From: Candidatus Paceibacterota bacterium
Lineage (GTDB): Bacteria; Actinomycetota; Actinomycetes; Nanopelagicales; Nanopelagicaceae
Length of the DNA stretch: 64,000 nt
Reading direction: 5' to 3'
Assembly: GCA_035530615.1 (NCBI GenBank)
Contig: DATKUL010000002.1
Span: 124,001-188,000 of the forward strand
Shown here: piece after piece, positions 29,755 through 42,337 of the stretch
Layout: every line of letters begins with the position of its first letter
Position numbering within the stretch: the stretch's first letter is position 1
Made by a program: the position numbers and the translations under genes
Notes under the pieces: model-generated
What the model was told of the DNA's origin: nothing
What the model saw: the letters and a program-made list of their open reading frames with translations, nothing else
Databases searched by the model: none

Positions 29755-31428
29755 ATGAGCACAATGAAGCCCCGGTCTGGTCTGGTCACTGATGGAATGG
29801 AACGAGCACCCGCCCGCGGAATGTTGCGCGCGGTGGGCATGGGGGATGAGGATTGGGTCAAGCCGCAGATCGGCATTGTCTCGTCGTGGAACGAAATTAC
29901 CCCCTGCAATTTATCCCTGGACCGTTTAGCAAAAGCATCCCGCCAGGGAGTGATTGACGCCGGCGGATTTCCTCTTCAATTTGGAACCATATCTGTCTCA
30001 GATGGAATTTCCATGGGCCACGAAGGCATGCACTTCTCACTCGTATCGCGAGAAGTTATCGCCGACTCCGTCGAGACAGTCATGCAGGCCGAACGACTTG
30101 ATGGCATGGTGACTTTCGCCGGATGCGATAAATCGTTGCCAGGCATGATGATGGCTGCGGCGCGCATCGATGTCGCAAGCGTTTTTGTTTACGCAGGTTC
30201 GACATTGCCAGGACAAGTGGATGGCAAAGATGTCACGATTATTGATGCATTCGAAGCAGTCGGTGCATGCGCTCGCGGATTGATTTCCCAAGCCCAATTA
30301 GACAAGATCGAGCGTGCGATCTGTCCCGGTGAAGGTGCCTGTGGTGGCATGTACACCGCAAACACCATGGCAACCGTCGGCGAAGCAATTGGTCTTTCAC
30401 TTCCCGGGTCTGCCGCACCACCCGCAGTTGACCGTCGACGCGATGCATACTCAGTAAAGGCCGGCGCCGCCGTAGTTGAATTGATCCGGCAAGGAATTAC
30501 CACTCGCGACATTCTCACCAAGCCGGCTTTTGAGAACGCCATCACTGCTGTCATGGCATTGGGTGGTTCGACCAATGCGGTTCTGCACTTGCTGGCAATT
30601 GCGCACGAGGCCGAAGTGGATCTTGATCTCGAAGACTTCCATCGCATTGGTTCGCGTGTGCCGCTGCTTGGTGATCTCAAGCCATTTGGCCGCTTCGTCA
30701 TGAGTGACATGGATAAAGTCGGCGGAGTTCCGGTTGTTCTTAAAGCACTACTAGATGCTGGTTTATTGCATGGGGATGTTCTGACCGTGACAGGAAAGAC
30801 GATGGCCGAGAACTTGGCCGATATCGCGCCCCCTGATCCAGACGGAGAGATCCTTCGTGCAACGACAAATCCAATGTCCCTAGGTGGGGGAATCACAATT
30901 CTCCATGGTTCACTGGCACCAGATGGAGCAGTAACCAAAACTGCTGGCGTAGATGTCGATATTTTTGAAGGCCCCGCCCGCGTTTTCGAACGCGAACAAC
31001 AAGCAATGACTGCACTTGAAGACGGCTCCATTCAGGCTGGCGATGTGGTCGTGATCCGCTACGAAGGCCCTAAAGGCGGACCAGGGATGCGCGAGATGTT
31101 GATGATAACGGGCGCTATCAAGGGTGCAGGATTGGGCAAATCCGTATTGCTTCTCACCGACGGACGTTTCTCGGGTGGAACCACTGGACTTTGCGTGGGA
31201 CATGTTGCGCCAGAAGCTTCTCTGGGCGGTCCGATTGCATTTGTGCGAGAAGGTGATCGCATTCGCATCAACACCATCACTCGGACCCTTGACCTTCTTG
31301 TCGATGAAGAAGAATTGGCGAAGCGTCGTATCAATTTTTCACCGATGCCGCATAAGTACACACGTGGAGTGCTCTCGAAGTACTCGAAATTAGTGGGATC
31401 TGCCAGCAAAGGCGCTGTCTGCGACTAA
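29755..31428 (+). CDS. ilvD: Dihydroxy-acid dehydratase
   Basis: 557 residues, full length. It catalyses dehydration of 2,3-dihydroxy-isovalerate and -3-methylvalerate to the keto acids of valine and isoleucine, using an Fe-S cluster. Family motifs are [39 protein letters not shown] (cluster Cys with Mg-binding residues), [15 protein letters not shown], and the C-terminal [21 protein letters not shown]. It is probably leaderless, with its own promoter. It lies just upstream of the ilvBNC attenuator, so the whole branched-chain pathway is grouped here. Confidence 0.97.
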
Positions 31429-31478
31429 AAAAAGTGTTTCAGGTCATGTCCATATGGTGAGATCACAATCTCAAAGGA

Positions 31479-31507
31479 TTGACGCTTGCGCATGCTCATT
31501 AGAGAAT
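31479..31507 (+). promoter_or_regulatory. Promoter of the ilvBNC-serA-leuB-ilvE-cimA operon
   Basis: TTGACG (31479-31484) and GAGAAT (31502-31507) are separated by 17 nt. Transcription would start at about 31514, which is the A of the leader-peptide ATG. Confidence 0.6.
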
Positions 31508-31513
31508 ATGCCA

Positions 31514-31552
31514 ATGAAGACATCAGTAGTGATTGAAAAGCGCGCGATCTAG
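31514..31552 (+). CDS. ilv attenuator leader peptide (12 aa, Val-Val-Ile rich)
   Basis: The open frame reads MKTSVVIEKRAI and stops. Four of its 12 codons are branched-chain amino acids: Val-Val-Ile in a row and a final Ile just before the stop. It begins about where transcription should start, so it would be translated as a leaderless message. A hairpin (31540-31570) includes its stop codon, and a terminator follows at 31573-31597, the classical layout of ribosome-mediated attenuation: starvation for Val or Ile stalls the ribosome and changes RNA folding. The competing antiterminator pairing is not obvious by eye. Confidence 0.7.
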   Translation: MKTSVVIEKRAI

Positions 31553-31570
31553 CACAATCAGATCCCGCGC
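31540..31570 (+). promoter_or_regulatory. Attenuator pause hairpin
   Basis: GCGCG-C-GATCT (31540-31550) pairs with AGATC-C-CGCGC (31560-31570), giving 10 pairs with one C/C mismatch around a 9-nt loop. Its left arm covers the last codons and stop of the leader peptide, so a translating ribosome would disrupt it. Confidence 0.65.
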
Positions 31571-31572
31571 TA

Positions 31573-31597
31573 CCCTCAGTTATCACTGAGGGTTTTT
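31573..31597 (+). terminator. Intrinsic terminator of the ilv attenuator
   Basis: CCCTCAG (31573-31579) and CTGAGGG (31586-31592) form a perfect 7-bp stem with a TTATCA loop, followed by five T residues. It lies 51 nt before the ilvB start and downstream of the leader peptide. Confidence 0.85.
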
Positions 31598-31648
31598 GCA
31601 TTATTAGGCGCAAATTTTTAATTACCAGAGACGGAAGGGAGTGGGCGA

Positions 31649-33387
31649 ATGAGCAAAGAGATGACTGGGGCGAGCAGTTTGGTGAAATCACTAGAGGCTG
31701 CAGGCGTGGACGTGATGTTCGGTATCCCCGGTGGCGCCATCCTTCCTGCCTACGATCCAATCTTCGACTCAAAGATCCGTCATATCTTGGTCCGTCACGA
31801 GCAGGGCGCGGGACATGCGGCCACCGGATACGCCCAAGCGACTGGTCGAGTCGGTACATGCATCGTGACTTCTGGCCCAGGTGCCACCAACTTGGTCACG
31901 CCTATCGCCGACGCTGCTATGGACTCAGTGCCACTCGTGGCAATCACAGGGCAGGTCCCATCGGCTGCCATTGGTACCGATGCCTTTCAAGAAGCTGACA
32001 TTCGCGGCATCACCATGCCGATCACTAAGCACAATTACCTGATCACCAATCCTGACGATATTCCACGCGCCATTGCAGAGGCTTTCCATATCGCGAGCAC
32101 GGGTCGTCCTGGTCCAGTTCTGGTTGATATCGCCAAGGACGCACTTCAGGCGATGACTCATTTCAAGTATCCAACGAAGTTGCAATTCGCCGGATACAAA
32201 CCGCAGATTGATCCCGATGATGAGGCAATTCGCGATGCAGCCGCTCTAATCGCGCAATCAGCCCGACCGGTTTTATTTGTCGGCGGGGGAGTCATCAAGT
32301 CCAACGCACATAAAGAGTTGATGCGGCTGGCTGAACTCACGGGTGCCCCAGTCGTGACCACCCTCATGGCGCGGGGTGCTTTTCCTGACAGTCACCATCT
32401 CCATCTTGGAATGCCAGGAATGCACGGCACTGTCGCTGCAGTCACCGCTTTGCAGAAAGCCGACCTCCTGATCACTCTTGGCGCTCGCTTTGACGATCGA
32501 GTCACTGGAAAACTCTCATCCTTTGCCGTGAATGCAAAGGTAATTCATGCAGATATCGATCCAGCCGAAATCGGCAAGAACCGATTTGCGGACGTTGCTG
32601 TCATCGGCGATCTTGCACACACGATCAAGGCTTTGATTCCCGCTCTACAAGGCGAGTTCAAGAAATCAAAACCAGATTTGACGCAATGGTGGAGATTCTT
32701 GAGTTCGCTACGTTCGACCTATCCGCTTGGCTACACCCATCCCGAGGATGGTTCTGTCTCACCCCAGTACGTGATTGAGCGAATCGGCGCAATCTCGGGT
32801 CCCGATTCAATTTACGTAGCCGGTGTTGGGCAGCATCAGATGTGGGCTTCTCAATTCGTTAAGTACGAAAAGCCGCGGACGTGGTTGAACTCTGGCGGGC
32901 TCGGAACCATGGGTTACGCAGTTCCGGCAGCTATGGGTGCGAAAGTTGGCATGCCGGACACAACGGTTTGGGCGATTGATGGTGATGGTTGTTTCCAGAT
33001 GACTAACCAAGAATTGGTGACCTGCGCACTCAACAACATTCCAATCAAGGTTGCGATCATCAACAACGAGAGTCTGGGCATGGTCCGTCAGTGGCAGACC
33101 ATGTTCTACGAAGGTCGCTACTCAAATACCTCACTGCACTCCAAGCGCATTCCTGACTTTGTGAAGTTGGCGGATGCGATGGGATGTGCGGGTCTTCGAT
33201 GCGAACGGACGGAAGACGTCGATGCAGTCATCAAGGAAGCGATGTCAATAAACGATCAACCCGTTGTTGTCGATTTCAGCGTATTTCGCGATGCAATGGT
33301 CTGGCCGATGGTTGCGGCCGGAACCTCTAATGATGAAATCATGATTGCTCGGGGCTTAGCTCCCGACTGGGATTCAGAGGAGTTGTG

Positions 33388-33388
<1 letters not shown>
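31649..33388 (+). CDS. ilvB: Acetolactate synthase large subunit
   Basis: 579 residues. ThDP-dependent condensation of pyruvate (or with 2-ketobutyrate) is the first common step of valine, leucine and isoleucine synthesis. Visible are [32 protein letters not shown] (catalytic Glu), [17 protein letters not shown], the ThDP/Mg motif [14 protein letters not shown]...[12 protein letters not shown], and the FAD region [15 protein letters not shown] precedes the ATG. The regulatory subunit gene follows with a one-base TGATG overlap. Expression is probably set by the upstream attenuator. Confidence 0.97.
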
Positions 33389-36591
<3,203 letters not shown>

Positions 36592-36593
36592 AA

Positions 36594-37640
36594 ATGAATG
36601 CAAGTTCATTTAATGTTGCCGTCATTGCAGGCGATGGAATCGGTCCTGAGGTTGTTGGCGAGGGGCTAAAGGTTCTCGATGTTGTCGGCGCAAAGCATGG
36701 TGTCTCATTTGTGAAGACTCCGTACGAACTCGGCGCAGGCTATTGGCACCGAACAGGTGAAGTTCTGCCAAAGTCCGTACTCGATGAACTGAAAAAATCC
36801 GACGTCATATTGTTAGGCGCAGTTGGAGACCCTTCAGTTCCAAGCGGTGTTCTTGAGCGAGGATTACTTCTTAAATTGCGCTTTGAATTTGATCAGTACG
36901 TCAACTTACGCCCAGCGCGTCTTTATGAAGGCGTAACGTCCCCTCTTTCAACTGCCGATGTCGTCGACTTCATCGTTGTTCGCGAAGGAACTGAGGGCCC
37001 GTATTCTGGCGCCGGCGGGTTCTTAGGTTACGGTAGCGAGAGTGAAGTAGCGATTGAGGACAGTATCAACAGCCGAAAAGGTGTTGAGCGCGTCATCCGC
37101 GATGCATTTGATCGCACCATGCTGCGCCCGCGTAAGAAGTTGACCATGGTTCACAAGAACAATGTTCTGGTTCATGCCGGCGATCTGTGGACGCGTACCT
37201 TCTATGAAGTGGCCAAGGAATATCCAGCGGTCACGACCGAGTACTTGCATGCGGACGCGGCAGCGATGTTCTTCATAACCAATCCAGGGCGCTTTGATGT
37301 TGTTGTTACTGACAATTTATTTGGAGATTTACTAACAGATATCGCTGCGGCCATTTGTGGTGGAATCGGCTTGGCGGCATCGGGAAATATCAATCCAACT
37401 CGAAAGTATCCATCTATGTTCGAACCTGTACACGGTTCGGCCCCGGATATCGCGGGCAAGAACTTGGCTGACCCAACTGCCACGATCCTTTCAATTGCGA
37501 TGATGCTCGACCACTTGGGTCTATCGGAGGCGGCTCGCGATGTTGAAAGAGTTGTTGCGCAGGATCTTCGCAGTCGCGGTATTACCAAACGAAGCACCAC
37601 TGAAATCGGAAGCGCGCTCGTGGCAGCGCTGAGGGGATAA
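36594..37640 (+). CDS. leuB: 3-isopropylmalate dehydrogenase
   Basis: 348 residues. It oxidatively decarboxylates 3-isopropylmalate (leucine) and, with CimA present, probably also erythro-3-methylmalate (isoleucine via citramalate). The family landmarks [57 protein letters not shown], the metal-binding [15 protein letters not shown], and [24 protein letters not shown] are present. AGGAG lies upstream of the ATG, 2 nt after serA. leuA and leuCD are not in the window. Confidence 0.95.
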
Positions 37641-37642
37641 TC

Positions 37643-38728
37643 ATGACGGTCAAAATCACACCATCTACTCATCCATTAACTCCGGAGCAGCGTGCTGAGA
37701 AATTAGCCAACCCCGGTTTTGGTAAGTACTACACCGATCACATGGTTGTGGCCGAGTGGAGTGAAGAGAGTGGCTGGTCTGAGGCGGAATTGAAGCCATA
37801 TGCGCCGATTTCCCTGGATCCAGCGACGATGGTTTTTCATTATGGCCAGGAGATCTTTGAAGGATTAAAGGCGTATCGTCAACCAGATGGAGGCGTTGCA
37901 CTCTTCCGCCCGGAGGCAAACGCTGCTCGCTTTGCACGAAGCGCGAAACGACTGGCACTGCCAGAACTACCAATTGAACTCTTTATCGAATCAGTCGATG
38001 CACTCGTAAGAGCGGATGCAAGTTGGGTTCCGGACAAGGTGGGGGAGTCGCTCTATCTGCGCCCATTTATGTTTGCCACCGAAGTTGGACTTGGAGTGCG
38101 ACCAACAAACCGTGCGGTTTACATGTTGATTGCTACACCAGCGGGTGCTTACTTCAATCCAGAGAATGCAGTGACTGTCTGGATTTCCACTGAATATGTA
38201 CGGGCGGCACCGGGTGGTACCGGCGAGGCTAAATGTGGGGGGAATTATGCCGCCTCCCTTGTGGCACAAAAGGTTGCAGCTGAGCAGGGATGCGACCAGG
38301 TTGTGTGGATCGATGCAATCGAACGTAAATGGGTTGAAGAGATGGGCGGCATGAATCTTTATTTTGTTAAGGGTTCAGGAAAAGACGCGTCTGTAATCAC
38401 TCCCAAGTTGACTGGCACTTTACTGCCTGGAATCACGCGTGATTCCATACTTAGTGTTGCGGCAGATCTTGGCTACAAAGTCGAAGAAACAATGATCAGT
38501 GTTGACGACTGGCACAAAGGCGTCGAGAGTGGAGAGATCACTGAGATTTTTGCGTGCGGAACCGCGGCGGTTGTTTCTCCAGTCGGAACTGCTAAGAGTG
38601 CCATGGGCACGTGGGTGACCGGCGATGGCAACCCAGGTCCCATCACGATGCAGATTCGCAATACCCTCCTTGGAATTCAGCATGGCACCGTTGAGGATTC
38701 ACATCATTGGCTGAGAAAAGTTCTCTAA
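37643..38728 (+). CDS. ilvE: Branched-chain amino acid aminotransferase
   Basis: 361 residues, fold-type IV PLP enzyme. Visible are FHYGQEIFEGLKAYRQPDGGVALFRPEANAARF, LYLRPFMFATEVGLGVRPT, KCGGNYAASLVAQKVAAEQGCDQVVWIDA (PLP Lys region upstream of the EEMGGMNLYFV block), and IFACGTAAVVSPVG. It transfers amino groups from glutamate to the keto acids of Val, Leu and Ile. It begins 2 nt after leuB and ends with a TAATG overlap into cimA. Confidence 0.95.
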   Translation: MTVKITPSTHPLTPEQRAEKLANPGFGKYYTDHMVVAEWSEESGWSEAELKPYAPISLDPATMVFHYGQEIFEGLKAYRQPDGGVALFRPEANAARFARSAKRLALPELPIELFIESVDALVRADASWVPDKVGESLYLRPFMFATEVGLGVRPTNRAVYMLIATPAGAYFNPENAVTVWISTEYVRAAPGGTGEAKCGGNYAASLVAQKVAAEQGCDQVVWIDAIERKWVEEMGGMNLYFVKGSGKDASVITPKLTGTLLPGITRDSILSVAADLGYKVEETMISVDDWHKGVESGEITEIFACGTAAVVSPVGTAKSAMGTWVTGDGNPGPITMQIRNTLLGIQHGTVEDSHHWLRKVL

Positions 38729-40317
38729 TGAAAATGTCTGATACTTTTCATATCTATGACACCACGCTGCGTGACGGCGCGCAACAAGAGGGTTTGAATC
38801 TGTCGGTTCATGACAAACTTGCGATTGCACGCCATCTAGACGACTTAGGTGTTGGATTTATTGAAGGCGGATGGCCAGGTGCTAATCCAAAAGACACTGA
38901 GTTCTTTGCGCGGGCAAAGACTGAATTGCAGCTTAAGAATGCGACTCTCGTGGCTTTCGGTGCGACCCGACGCCCACATGTAAATGCCGCGGATGACGTG
39001 CTTCTTGGCGCCTTGCGCGACTCGAGTGCTTCTGTGGTCACTCTCGTTGCCAAGGCTCATGACCGACACGTTGATTTGGCACTGCGCACCACGCTTGATG
39101 AGAACTTGGAGATGATTGCCGATTCGATCAAGCATCTTCGCGGCGAAGGGCAGAGAGTCTTCCTCGATGCCGAGCACTTCTTTGATGGCTACCGCTCGAA
39201 TCGTGCTTACTCCTTGGAGGTTATCCGAGTCGCGGTTGAGGCGGGTGCCGATGTAGTTGCGCTCTGCGACACCAATGGCGGCATGTTGCCAGATGAACTT
39301 TCAGATATTGTCCATGACATCATCCAAAGTACTTCTGCTCGTGTTGGAATTCATTGCCACAACGACACAGGTTGTGCCGTCGCAAACTCGATGGCTGCGG
39401 TTGCAGCAGGTGCGACACATGTTCAGGGGACACTCAACGGGTATGGCGAAAGGACTGGTAACGCAGACTTAGTCACAATCATTGCAAACCTGCAGTTGAA
39501 GAAGGGCCAACAAGTTCTTCCCGCGAGCGCGCTGCAGGAAGCATTCCGTATTTCGCATGCAGTTGCAGAAGTTACAAATGTCGCCCCCAGTGCTCGCCAG
39601 CCCTACGTTGGCGTGTCAGCCTTCGCCCATAAAGCCGGTCTGCATGCAAGTGCGATCAAAGTTGACCCATCGTTGTATCAACACGAAGACCCAGCCTCTG
39701 TTGGAAATGACATGCGCATGCTTGTTTCCGAGATGGCTGGAAGAGCGTCCATAGAATTGAAGTCACAAGAACTTGGATTTGATCTGGGAGGAGACCGCGA
39801 AGTCATAGGTCGGGTTGTCGAGCGCGTTAAGGAAATGGAATCACGCGGATTCACCTTCGAAGCCGCCGATGCCTCCTTTGAATTATTGTTGCGCGAAGAG
39901 GCTACTGGAGTACGACCAAGTTTCTTCTCAATCGATCACTGGCTCACAACTGTGGAGCGAGCCGAAGATCAGAGCATCGTGACAAAGGCTGAGATTACTC
40001 TTACCGCACAAGGGGAGAAGATCGCCTGCGTGGGACGAGGAAATGGTCCGGTAAACGCTTTTGATAAGGCACTTCGATCCGGGCTACTACGTTTTTATCC
40101 AGAATTGGCCCAACTCGAACTTACCGACTACAAGGTCCGTATTCTTGAAGGTCGCCTCGGAACCGGCGCTATAACTCGAGTTCTTGTAGAGACAAGTGAC
40201 GGCAAGGGTGAATGGAGTACGGTCGGTGTGCATGAGAACGTCATTGCTGCATCGGCTATGGCGTTAGAGGACGCAGTCACCTATGGACTTCTTAGACAAG
40301 GCAGAATTCCAGAGTAA
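38728..40317 (+). CDS. cimA: (R)-citramalate synthase (LeuA-like, CimA)
   Basis: 529 residues from ATG 38728 (TAATG overlap); ATG 38734 is also possible. The HMGL-like barrel contains IYDTTLRDGAQQEGLNLSVHDKLAIARHLDDLGVGFIEGGWPGANPKD, the metal His pair in GIHCHNDTGCAVANS, and FAHKAGLHASAI. The C-terminal part is the LeuA-type allosteric dimer domain. It condenses acetyl-CoA with pyruvate to citramalate, giving 2-ketobutyrate for isoleucine without threonine deaminase. A homocitrate/isopropylmalate specificity cannot be excluded by eye, but the sequence is the CimA type. Confidence 0.9.
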   Translation: MKMSDTFHIYDTTLRDGAQQEGLNLSVHDKLAIARHLDDLGVGFIEGGWPGANPKDTEFFARAKTELQLKNATLVAFGATRRPHVNAADDVLLGALRDSSASVVTLVAKAHDRHVDLALRTTLDENLEMIADSIKHLRGEGQRVFLDAEHFFDGYRSNRAYSLEVIRVAVEAGADVVALCDTNGGMLPDELSDIVHDIIQSTSARVGIHCHNDTGCAVANSMAAVAAGATHVQGTLNGYGERTGNADLVTIIANLQLKKGQQVLPASALQEAFRISHAVAEVTNVAPSARQPYVGVSAFAHKAGLHASAIKVDPSLYQHEDPASVGNDMRMLVSEMAGRASIELKSQELGFDLGGDREVIGRVVERVKEMESRGFTFEAADASFELLLREEATGVRPSFFSIDHWLTTVERAEDQSIVTKAEITLTAQGEKIACVGRGNGPVNAFDKALRSGLLRFYPELAQLELTDYKVRILEGRLGTGAITRVLVETSDGKGEWSTVGVHENVIAASAMALEDAVTYGLLRQGRIPE

Positions 40318-40326
40318 TCTGGTTAT

Positions 40327-41238
40327 GTGAGCGATCTGGATTCGGTAACCGCATCTTTTGAGAGTCACCTTCGTCATGAACGTAATCTTGCGACTCATAC
40401 TATTCGTGCATATCTAGGGGACCTAGAGAGCCTTTTCAAACAACTCCGCGTGCTGGAGGTTGAGAGAATCGAAGAGTTGGATCTTTCACATATTCGATCA
40501 TGGCTTGCCACAATGCAAGTCAAAGGGGGAGCTCGCACCTCTTTATCGAGGCGAGCAGTATCGATTCGCCTCTTCACTCAGTGGGCTTTTAAATCCGGCC
40601 TGATTCCCACCGATGTCGGCCTCACTCTGGCCATTCCAAAAGCGCATCGCACATTGCCCGAGATTCTTGACATTCCAAATGCTCTGCTCGCAATGGAAGC
40701 TCTTTCGGTACGTGTAGGTGAAGAGGAGACGCCGCTGGCTCTTCGCGATTGCGCCATGGTCGAAGTGCTCTATGCCAGCGGTGCTCGTGTCGCCGAATTA
40801 TGTGGACTCAATCTTCTGGATATTGATTACGAACGTCAAACTCTTCGAGTTCTGGGTAAAGGTAATAAGGAACGAACCGTCCCTGTCGGTAATCCGGCGA
40901 TGAGGGCGTTGAAAGCGTGGATCAAAGAAGGCCGACCTGCTTTAATCAATTCGGTTTCGGGCGACGCAGTTTTTCTTGGCGCCCGTGGAAAGCGGATAGA
41001 TCCACGAACTGTGAGAACGGTGGTTTATGAAGCACTCTCGGCCCTCGAAGGAGTAGGGAGAATGGGTCCGCATGCTCTGCGTCATTCAGCTGCGACCCAT
41101 TTGCTCGAAGGCGGCGCCGATCTGCGGACGGTTCAGGAGATATTGGGTCACGCCTCACTTGCGACTACTCAGATTTACACCCATGTTTCGACGGAAAGGC
41201 TACAAAAAGCCTTCAAACAGGCACATCCGCGGGCGTAA
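40327..41238 (+). CDS. xerC: Tyrosine recombinase XerC
   Basis: 303 residues, starting at GTG. The N-terminal SAM-like core-binding domain (FESHLRHERNLATHTIRAYLGDLESL) is followed by the catalytic domain with Arg in YASGARVAELCGL, Lys in LGKGNKERTVPVG, His/Arg in HALRHSAATHLLEGG, His in ILGHASLATTQ, and the nucleophile Tyr in IYTHVSTERLQ. With XerD it resolves chromosome dimers at dif. It is 9 nt after cimA and precedes rpsB, its usual actinobacterial place; this is not a mobile-element integrase. Confidence 0.93.
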   Translation: MSDLDSVTASFESHLRHERNLATHTIRAYLGDLESLFKQLRVLEVERIEELDLSHIRSWLATMQVKGGARTSLSRRAVSIRLFTQWAFKSGLIPTDVGLTLAIPKAHRTLPEILDIPNALLAMEALSVRVGEEETPLALRDCAMVEVLYASGARVAELCGLNLLDIDYERQTLRVLGKGNKERTVPVGNPAMRALKAWIKEGRPALINSVSGDAVFLGARGKRIDPRTVRTVVYEALSALEGVGRMGPHALRHSAATHLLEGGADLRTVQEILGHASLATTQIYTHVSTERLQKAFKQAHPRA

Positions 41239-41316
41239 CGCCCCCAGACTTATACGGTTTTCTACGCAAAATAATGCGGAACTTCGACCCCAATCGGTCA
41301 GGTAGGATTGCCCCTG

Positions 41317-41336
41317 CATCACAGACCATCGTGATG
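41317..41336 (+). promoter_or_regulatory. rpsB leader hairpin 1
   Basis: CATCAC (41317-41322) pairs with GTGATG (41331-41336) around an 8-nt loop. It lies near the presumed start of the rpsB transcript (a TAGGAT at 41303-41308 could be the -10 box). Confidence 0.5.
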
Positions 41337-41343
41337 ACTTCAC

Positions 41344-41394
41344 GCGCCTAGTAAGTACCACCTCGGTCCAGTTCGCTGGTCGGTGTCTAGGCGC
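41344..41394 (+). promoter_or_regulatory. rpsB leader hairpin 2, long stem with UUCG tetraloop
   Basis: Nested complementary arms: GCGCCTAG (41344-41351) with CTAGGCGC (41387-41394), CACC (41359-41362) with GGTG (41382-41385), and CCAG (41368-41371) with CTGG (41376-41379) closing a TTCG loop. It has no U-tract, so it is a structured leader element rather than a terminator, perhaps recognised by S2. Confidence 0.65.
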
Positions 41395-41430
41395 TAGCGG
41401 GCCAGCAGATAGTTGACCCAATAACCGAGA

Positions 41431-41452
41431 GCGAACTTCGAGAGAAGTGCGC
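41431..41452 (+). promoter_or_regulatory. rpsB leader hairpin 3, GNRA tetraloop next to the ribosome site
   Basis: GCG-A-ACTTC (41431-41439) pairs with GAAGT-G-CGC (41444-41452) around a GAGA tetraloop. The AAGGAG ribosome site (41456-41461) starts 3 nt later, so folding could affect rpsB translation. Confidence 0.6.
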
Positions 41453-41470
41453 AAGAAGGAGTGTGCCGCC

Positions 41471-42337
41471 ATGGCGGTTGTAACAATGCGAGAACTTCTC
41501 GACAGCGGAGTTCACTTCGGACACCAGACGCGTCGATGGAACCCAAAGATGAAGCGCTTTATTTTCACAGAGCGCAATGGCATCTACATCATCGATATTC
41601 AGCAATCACTCGGATTGATCGATAGCGCCTACGAATTTGTAAAGGATGTCGTGGCTAAGGGCGGACATATTCTTTATGTGGGCACAAAGAAGCAAGCACA
41701 AGAGCCAATCATTCAGCAGTCTGCTCGCGTAGGCATGCCTTACGTCACCGAGCGCTGGCTTGGCGGAATGCTCACCAACTTTCCAACTGTCTACAAGCGA
41801 ATTCAGCGTCTCAAGGAACTTGAAGCACTAGAAAGCGCCAATGATCAGTTGCTGACCAAGAAGGAACTTCTCGTTCTTCGTCGTGAGCGCGAGAAGCTCA
41901 ATAAGAACCTCAATGGAATTCGTAATATGACCAAGTTGCCAAGTGCAATTTGGGTTGTCGACACCAAGAAGGAACACCTCGCAGTTGCCGAAGCAAAGAA
42001 GCTCGGTATTCCAGTTATTGCAATCTTGGATACCAACTGCGATCCAGATGAAGTTGACTTCAAAATTCCAGGTAATGATGACGCAATCCGCTCCATCGGA
42101 CTCCTCACCCGTGTCATCACTGATGCAGTAGCTGCCGGACTGCAAGCGCGCGCGGCAGCCAGTGTGAAAGAAGAAGTGAAGGCTGATACAGAAACTGTTG
42201 CTGCTGGTGAGCCACTCGCCGATTGGGAGAAAGAAATCCTCTCCGGCGATGCCGCTCCCGACACGGAGGCGGTTGAGGTTCGTCCAGAGGTAGAAGTACC
42301 AATGGTCGTCGAAACCAATGCTGTAACGGAGGGTTAA
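41471..42337 (+). CDS. rpsB: 30S ribosomal protein S2
   Basis: 288 residues from ATG 41471, with AAGGAG 9 nt upstream; the upstream in-frame codon at 41447 lies within the leader and is rejected. It begins [44 protein letters not shown], the canonical S2 opening, and contains the coiled-coil insertion ([33 protein letters not shown]). It has an acidic C-terminal extension typical of actinobacteria. It forms an operon with tsf. Confidence 0.98.

Follow-up and report, generated by a model that had tools for sequence, protein, structure and literature searches.

The ilvB gene in the window (the whole stretch of 64,000 nucleotides of Nanopelagicaceae DNA analyzed here) is preceded by a twelve-codon reading frame and two hairpins, raising the question of whether its operon is controlled by a translated leader peptide and, if so, through which switching step.

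Organization of the ilvB operon and its leader region

The features identified are listed in Table 1. The preliminary description of this DNA, made from the letters alone, had proposed a seven-gene operon that includes serA and cimA, and NCBIfam assignments bear this out (ilvB, ilvN, ilvC, serA, leuB, ilvE and cimA). The genes are tightly spaced or overlapping, and scans of positions 33300-41500 returned no promoters or terminators above chance numbers. Since cimA overlaps ilvE and lies inside the operon, it has no leader of its own. NCBIfam identifies ilvD directly upstream of the operon and a XerC-type recombinase next. The ilvD gene (29755-31428) ends 51 nt ahead of the ilvB promoter, with no evident terminator in 31429-31478.

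Table 1. Features of the ilvB operon and its upstream region, in window coordinates.
Feature	Position	Strand	Basis
Palindrome TGAGATCACAATCTCA, candidate operator, 5 nt upstream of the -35 box	31458..31473		conservation
Promoter TTGACG-17-GAGAAT	31479..31507	+	direct reading and scan; TTGAC-N17/18-NANNNT in relatives
Predicted transcription start, A of the leader ATG (leaderless)	31514	+	-10-to-start spacing, mapped homologues
Leader peptide ORF, MKTSVVIEKRAI	31514..31552	+	direct reading; family comparison
Sensor codons GTA GTG ATT (Val-Val-Ile)	31526..31534	+	Val/Ile run conserved in relatives
Hairpin P1, encloses the stop codon and abuts the terminator (gap 0 nt)	31539..31571	+	folding, covariation
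Intrinsic terminator ACCCTCAGTTATCACTGAGGGT with T5 tract	31572..31597	+	scan, covariation
ilvB ribosome-binding site, purine-rich, GGAAGGGAG	31633..31641	+	direct reading
ilvB, acetolactate synthase large subunit	31649..33388	+	NCBIfam NF005860
ilvN, acetolactate synthase small subunit	33385..33942	+	NF008864
ilvC, ketol-acid reductoisomerase	33975..35006	+	NF004017
serA, phosphoglycerate dehydrogenase	34972..36591	+	TIGR01327
leuB, 3-isopropylmalate dehydrogenase	36594..37640	+	NF002898
ilvE, branched-chain aminotransferase	37643..38728	+	NF009897
cimA, citramalate synthase	38707..40317	+	TIGR00977

Direct reading and a promoter scan agree on the promoter given in the preliminary description, with a -35 box TTGACG (31479-31484), a 17-bp spacer and a -10 box GAGAAT (31502-31507) that is followed after 6 nt by the ATG at 31514. 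Taken alone, the scan yields one match against 0.6 expected, which is within chance, and the case for this promoter therefore rests on the conservation of its position in relatives, which is what makes the match significant. Given the promoter spacing and the mapped starts of homologues, the RNA likely starts at 31514 and is leaderless. A second in-frame ATG (31508-31513 region) lies two codons upstream of the leader ATG and touches the -10 box, a configuration that recurs in 9 of 40 held-out relatives; if transcription starts at 31514, the ATG at 31508 would be absent from the RNA.

The twelve-codon frame with its Val-Val-Ile run was read directly where it had been reported, and it closes with a TAG stop codon (31550-31552) inside hairpin P1. 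The ATT of the sensor run begins 8 nt upstream of the GC foot of P1. The terminator that follows, described earlier as perfect, has a 9-bp stem without mismatches and a 4-nt loop (31572-31593), running into five T residues (31593-31597), and is conserved and covarying in relatives. The RNA from 31514 to 31604 has a folding energy of -32.3 kcal/mol, against -17.3 +/- 3.1 kcal/mol for shuffled sequences (z -4.9), and none of 200 shuffles was as stable.

Conservation of the leader in Nanopelagicales and other actinomycetes

The upstream regions of ilvB were compared across 39 Nanopelagicaceae and about 50 other actinomycetes. Relatives that bear names in public records are freshwater actinobacteria of the Nanopelagicaceae type. 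The family leaders begin with ATG or GTG at a distance of 5-7 nt, nearly always 6, past the -10 box, and for each relative examined the promoter-to-start spacing fits transcription beginning at this codon, in keeping with the start at the ATG that had been proposed. Family leader peptides include MISVVVIEKRAI, MRSLVVIHELAI, MSTTFVVVI, MQKKLALISSSVIVVVIR and MKKSSLISQIVITSVVVVIIERAR; the branched-chain amino acids (BCAA) Ile, Val and Leu make up 46% of their residues, and the Val/Ile run is conserved. A final Ile had been counted among the features of the leader. The last codon before the stop varies among relatives (Ile, Leu, Arg, Ser or Gly), and on this comparison the final Ile codon is therefore part of the coding of P1 and not of the sensor. 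In leaders with an upstream-shifted stop codon, such as MSTTFVVVI, the RNA still retains the P1 strand, and several species carry a relic GATCTAG there.

A covariance model (R1) was built on the stretch from the sensor codons to the T tract, with the promoter and start codon outside the model. It finds a single strong match in this genome (E 8e-15) and matches 259 of 296 genomes of the order, including 104 of the 108 of good quality, almost always once per genome. All 40 newly fetched loci of a held-out test have a leader start 6-7 nt after the -10 box. The attenuator module is ancient. By sequence, leaderless mini-gene attenuation is nearly universal in this abundant order of small-genome freshwater actinobacteria, where the attenuator precedes a larger operon that includes serA, leuB, ilvE and cimA.

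Several public metagenome bins titled 'Bifidobacterium breve' (L047, L054, L056 and L063) carry ilvB genes and leaders of Nanopelagicales or actinomycete type, with 73-81% identity to the ilvB of the window, and their titles therefore look wrong.

RNA structure and fixed spacings

In a 34-sequence alignment, eight base pairs are changed on both sides, and double-sided changes that keep pairing occupy 26 cells, against 11.4 in shuffles. The covariation score (0.174, against 0.115 for shuffled alignments) is reached by none of 500 shuffles and falls sharply once the pairing partners are slid. Both P1 and the terminator covary; where HERAI has become HELAI through a CGC to CTC change, for instance, the opposite P1 strand is altered to match. 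Hardly any variation is seen in the outermost G-C pairs of P1 or in the terminator's C-G base. The alignment of leaders from related genomes, suggested earlier as a check, shows the hairpins conserved and the Val/Ile codons and the terminator kept.

Leader length (8-29 codons), P1 length (23-65 nt) and the position of the stop codon, anywhere between 18 nt inside P1 and 5 nt upstream of it, are all variable, and the geometry of the element is fixed. With unrestricted folding, the gap between P1 and the terminator is 0-1 nt in 80 of 85 species, compared with 38% in shuffles. The P1 foot follows the final BCAA codon of the run at a distance of 8 nt in 31 of the 39 family members and in 28 of 48 actinomycetes from elsewhere. 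In the window the P1 base adjoins the terminator base with a gap of 0, the arrangement of attenuators classed as 'fast'. The two hairpins do not overlap there, and no boundary trinucleotide able to pair in either hairpin was found in the window; overlaps of 1-3 nt are possible in a minority of relatives. A hairpin around the stop codon is present, as the preliminary description had it, but because P1 abuts the terminator, the supposed pause hairpin is probably the antitermination element itself.

Proposed switching mechanism

The locus very probably represents ribosome-mediated attenuation by a leaderless, BCAA-sensing leader of the kind found before actinobacterial ilvB genes, and the comparison among relatives supports the earlier interpretation that such a leader controls the operon. 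From the promoter spacing and the mapped homologues we infer that the first base of the RNA would be the A of the leader ATG and that a 70S ribosome would initiate at its 5' end without a Shine-Dalgarno sequence. When Val-tRNA or Ile-tRNA is scarce, the ribosome would stall on GTA-GTG-ATT with its edge about at the P1 foot, allowing P1 to form; the intact P1 foot, abutting the terminator, would keep the lowest part of the terminator stem, next to the U tract, from pairing, and the seven-gene operon would be transcribed. Closing of the last terminator base pairs would fall where P1 stands, at the exit channel of RNA polymerase. When amino acids are plentiful, the ribosome would reach the stop codon inside P1 and melt the hairpin, and the terminator would close, ending transcription about 50 nt upstream of ilvB.

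The usual footprint of a ribosome reaches 12 nt downstream. A ribosome with the first Val codon in its A site would end about at the P1 foot and leave P1 intact, and one on the stop codon would cover all or much of one P1 strand. The sign of regulation (on in starvation, off in plenty) is what we infer from this arrangement. To the abutting-hairpin step taken by itself, with P1 as a steric antiterminator, we assign an even chance.

Several points weigh against this reading. The equilibrium probability of the terminator is about 0.9-1.0 in the window at any ribosome position, and nearly all other loci behave similarly; since the terminator forms wherever the ribosome stands, the block of termination by P1 rests on a steric argument. 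Moreover, part of the ilvB RNA may derive from ilvD read-through and carry an untranslated leader, as such RNA would contain the leader without a leaderless start. P1 and the terminator also merely adjoin here and lack the overlap seen in Corynebacterium glutamicum. A further objection comes from Streptomyces coelicolor, where substituting codons of the ilvB leader changed nothing (Craster et al., 1999, as cited in PMC1262725).

The strongest alternative is a classical trp-type attenuator, in which a 2:3 antiterminator that excludes the terminator forms on stalling and P1 is merely a pause hairpin. This is the textbook model and has also been proposed for Mycobacterium tuberculosis ilvB1 (PMC13236596), and the minimum-energy structure of the leader RNA in the window does pair leader codons with the terminator. 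However, when ribosome masks were placed on the codon at either end of the sensor run or on the stop codon and the remaining RNA was folded, the mean terminator probability was about 0.96-0.99 in the 39 family members and 0.93-0.95 in 46 others, and no classical 2:3 antiterminator was found under these masks, a result that describes equilibrium folding and is compatible with a short-lived cotranscriptional form. True combinations of leader and terminator paired no better than mismatched ones (p 0.57 and 0.99), and the leader codons needed for such pairing would lie under a stalled ribosome. We consider the trp-type model unlikely, while granting it a real share of the probability. A long-range antiterminator in which the Val codons pair with the terminator was likewise considered and rejected, as mismatched pairs were equally good and few relatives show the pairing.

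Isoleucine-biased leaders upstream of cimA

The model built on the family ilvB leaders also matches those of ilvB in other families. Several genomes have an additional match before cimA, where the leader peptides are MTHFATIICERVG, MSTITIICERVG, MTSWTIISERVD and MLRPCIIIH. A survey of 65 cimA genes outside the family revealed an Ile-Ile leader and a terminator upstream of 42, and a start-site-aware pass retained 40 cimA leaders from 19 families (the loci upstream of cimA are L164, L167, L169, L171, L172 and L203-L262). The geometry recurs: of the 40, 38 have a P1-terminator gap of 0-1, and 21 have their final BCAA codon 8 nt ahead of P1. The codons differ: Ile, Val and Leu stand at 98:28:18 in the cimA leaders, as against 40:106:113 in ilvB leaders outside the family (Fisher test of the codon swap, p 4e-17, a value that ignores shared ancestry). 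CimA commits pyruvate to isoleucine, and the leader codons therefore track the end product. That codon identity follows the downstream gene amounts to a natural codon swap, supporting codon-specific sensing as read from sequence, and the cimA leaders make such sensing directly testable.

At one cimA upstream region, in a large-genome family (locus L213, family f19), the cimA-type terminator is present and an Ile-Ile leader was not recognized; this lineage may have lost or changed its sensor. We found no paper on a cimA attenuator in the open-access literature, and the Ile-biased cimA leaders of about 19 actinomycete families are apparently undescribed.

Tentatively, and at somewhat less than an even chance, the ilvB and cimA elements may be one leaderless actinomycete module that works without an alternative antiterminator, with a hairpin whose foot, a fixed 8 nt past the last sensor codon, abuts the terminator and would block its final closure in the RNA polymerase exit channel. 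If true, the module would have been copied and retuned, using Val, Ile and Leu codons before ilvB and, in about 19 families, mostly Ile codons before cimA.

A conserved palindrome upstream of the promoter

The preliminary description missed an operator-like palindrome before the -35 box. At least 10 of 12 palindrome positions match in 38 of 39 Nanopelagicaceae loci, against 0.3% of shuffles, and in 36 of the 39 the -35 box follows TGAGAT-N4-ATCTCA at a distance of 4-5 nt. The exact sequence occurs only here in this genome and once per genome in 14 genomes of the genus; eight sites with one mismatch elsewhere in this genome are all within ORFs. The palindrome suggests a second, protein-based layer of control and looks like the operator of a single-target regulator. 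NdgR/LtbR was considered as its reader and set aside, the published NdgR motif being different and this genome having no second intergenic site.

Could such a repressor account for the control by itself? End-product control would then come from a repressor at TGAGAT-N4-ATCTCA, with a constitutive terminator, a structured 5' end and no sensing by the leader. In favour of this, the palindrome shows strict conservation and marks only the ilvB promoter, the ilvB region of S. coelicolor is bound by the IclR-type regulator NdgR (PMC4340878), and the silent leader codon changes reported from that species (as cited in PMC1262725) would fit. Against this, families that lack the palindrome conserve the Val/Ile run, the spacing from that run to P1 and the abutment of P1 and terminator, the codons switch to Ile before cimA, and the mismatch with the published NdgR motif applies here too, making a repressor-only explanation improbable.

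A riboswitch or T-box in place of a translated leader is more improbable still, to the point of being negligible: some Firmicutes ilvB genes are under ppGpp riboswitches (PMC10272879) and T-boxes exist in Actinobacteria (PMC1262725), but conservation here lies in codons, stem feet and the terminator with no aptamer-like core, the leader frames, with their BCAA runs, stay open and vary in length by codon units, and no Rfam covariance model, including those of the T-box and ppGpp riboswitch, matched the leader RNA at E up to 5.

Comparison with known attenuators

Probable attenuation by a BCAA-sensing leader places the window element beside the ilvB leader-peptide attenuators described in Corynebacterium, Mycobacterium and Streptomyces (Seliverstov et al., 2005, PMC1262725). 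Like these, it combines a short Ile/Val/Leu-rich ORF, here MKTSVVIEKRAI, with a U-run terminator directly upstream of ilvB, here at 31572-31597. That study did not cover Nanopelagicales, the text consulted gives neither the palindrome nor the fixed 8-nt and 0-nt spacings, and its authors call the mode of ilvB regulation unclear.

One mapped counterpart is S. lividans IlvL (MRTRILVLGKRVG), a 13-codon leader with a mapped leaderless start and a terminator before ilvBHC (PMC8079986). The identical peptide is encoded at locus L104, where the promoter spacing is nearly equal and the hairpin layout is the same; IlvL differs from the window in having one Val, one Ile and two Leu codons, a very long P1 and no TGAGAT palindrome. 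A homologous leader in C. diphtheriae also has a mapped leaderless start (PMC5784534), and in C. glutamicum the start of the ilvBNC transcript and the start codon of the leader are about one nucleotide apart, similar to the start predicted in the window. We found no paper on leaderless transcripts in Nanopelagicales in the open-access literature.

The M. tuberculosis ilvB1NC attenuator shares a translated BCAA-rich uORF and a terminator controlling the operon, and ilvB1 is no longer induced once LVVI is replaced by AAAA, evidence that the sensor codons matter; the model proposed for it has a mutually exclusive antiterminator (PMC13236596), whereas none is seen at equilibrium in the window. In C. 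glutamicum, the bases of antiterminator and terminator adjoin and overlap, and mutations in the terminator base derepress (PMC11857589), which lends support to a switch of the kind proposed here. The window element shares with this 'fast' ilvBNC attenuator (PMC11857589) and the ilvB-II motif (PMC10272879) a hairpin base that adjoins the terminator base, P1 being the candidate antiterminator in the window; the C. glutamicum model has three hairpins with a 3-nt overlap, whereas in the window two hairpins adjoin without overlap. The mycobacterial poly-Cys uORF attenuators (Canestrari et al., 2020, as cited in PMC13236596) are likewise leaderless short ORFs whose codons sense the amino acid of the pathway but, as described in that citation, they respond to cysteine and act by translation attenuation.

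The fixed spacing of codons, hairpin and terminator supplies a rule that can be put to the test in attenuators of this type, for which the switching step is unsettled and the S. coelicolor codon mutants pose a paradox. The attenuator of the window is of a known kind, the actinobacterial ilvB leader-peptide attenuator, found here in a new order and before a larger operon.
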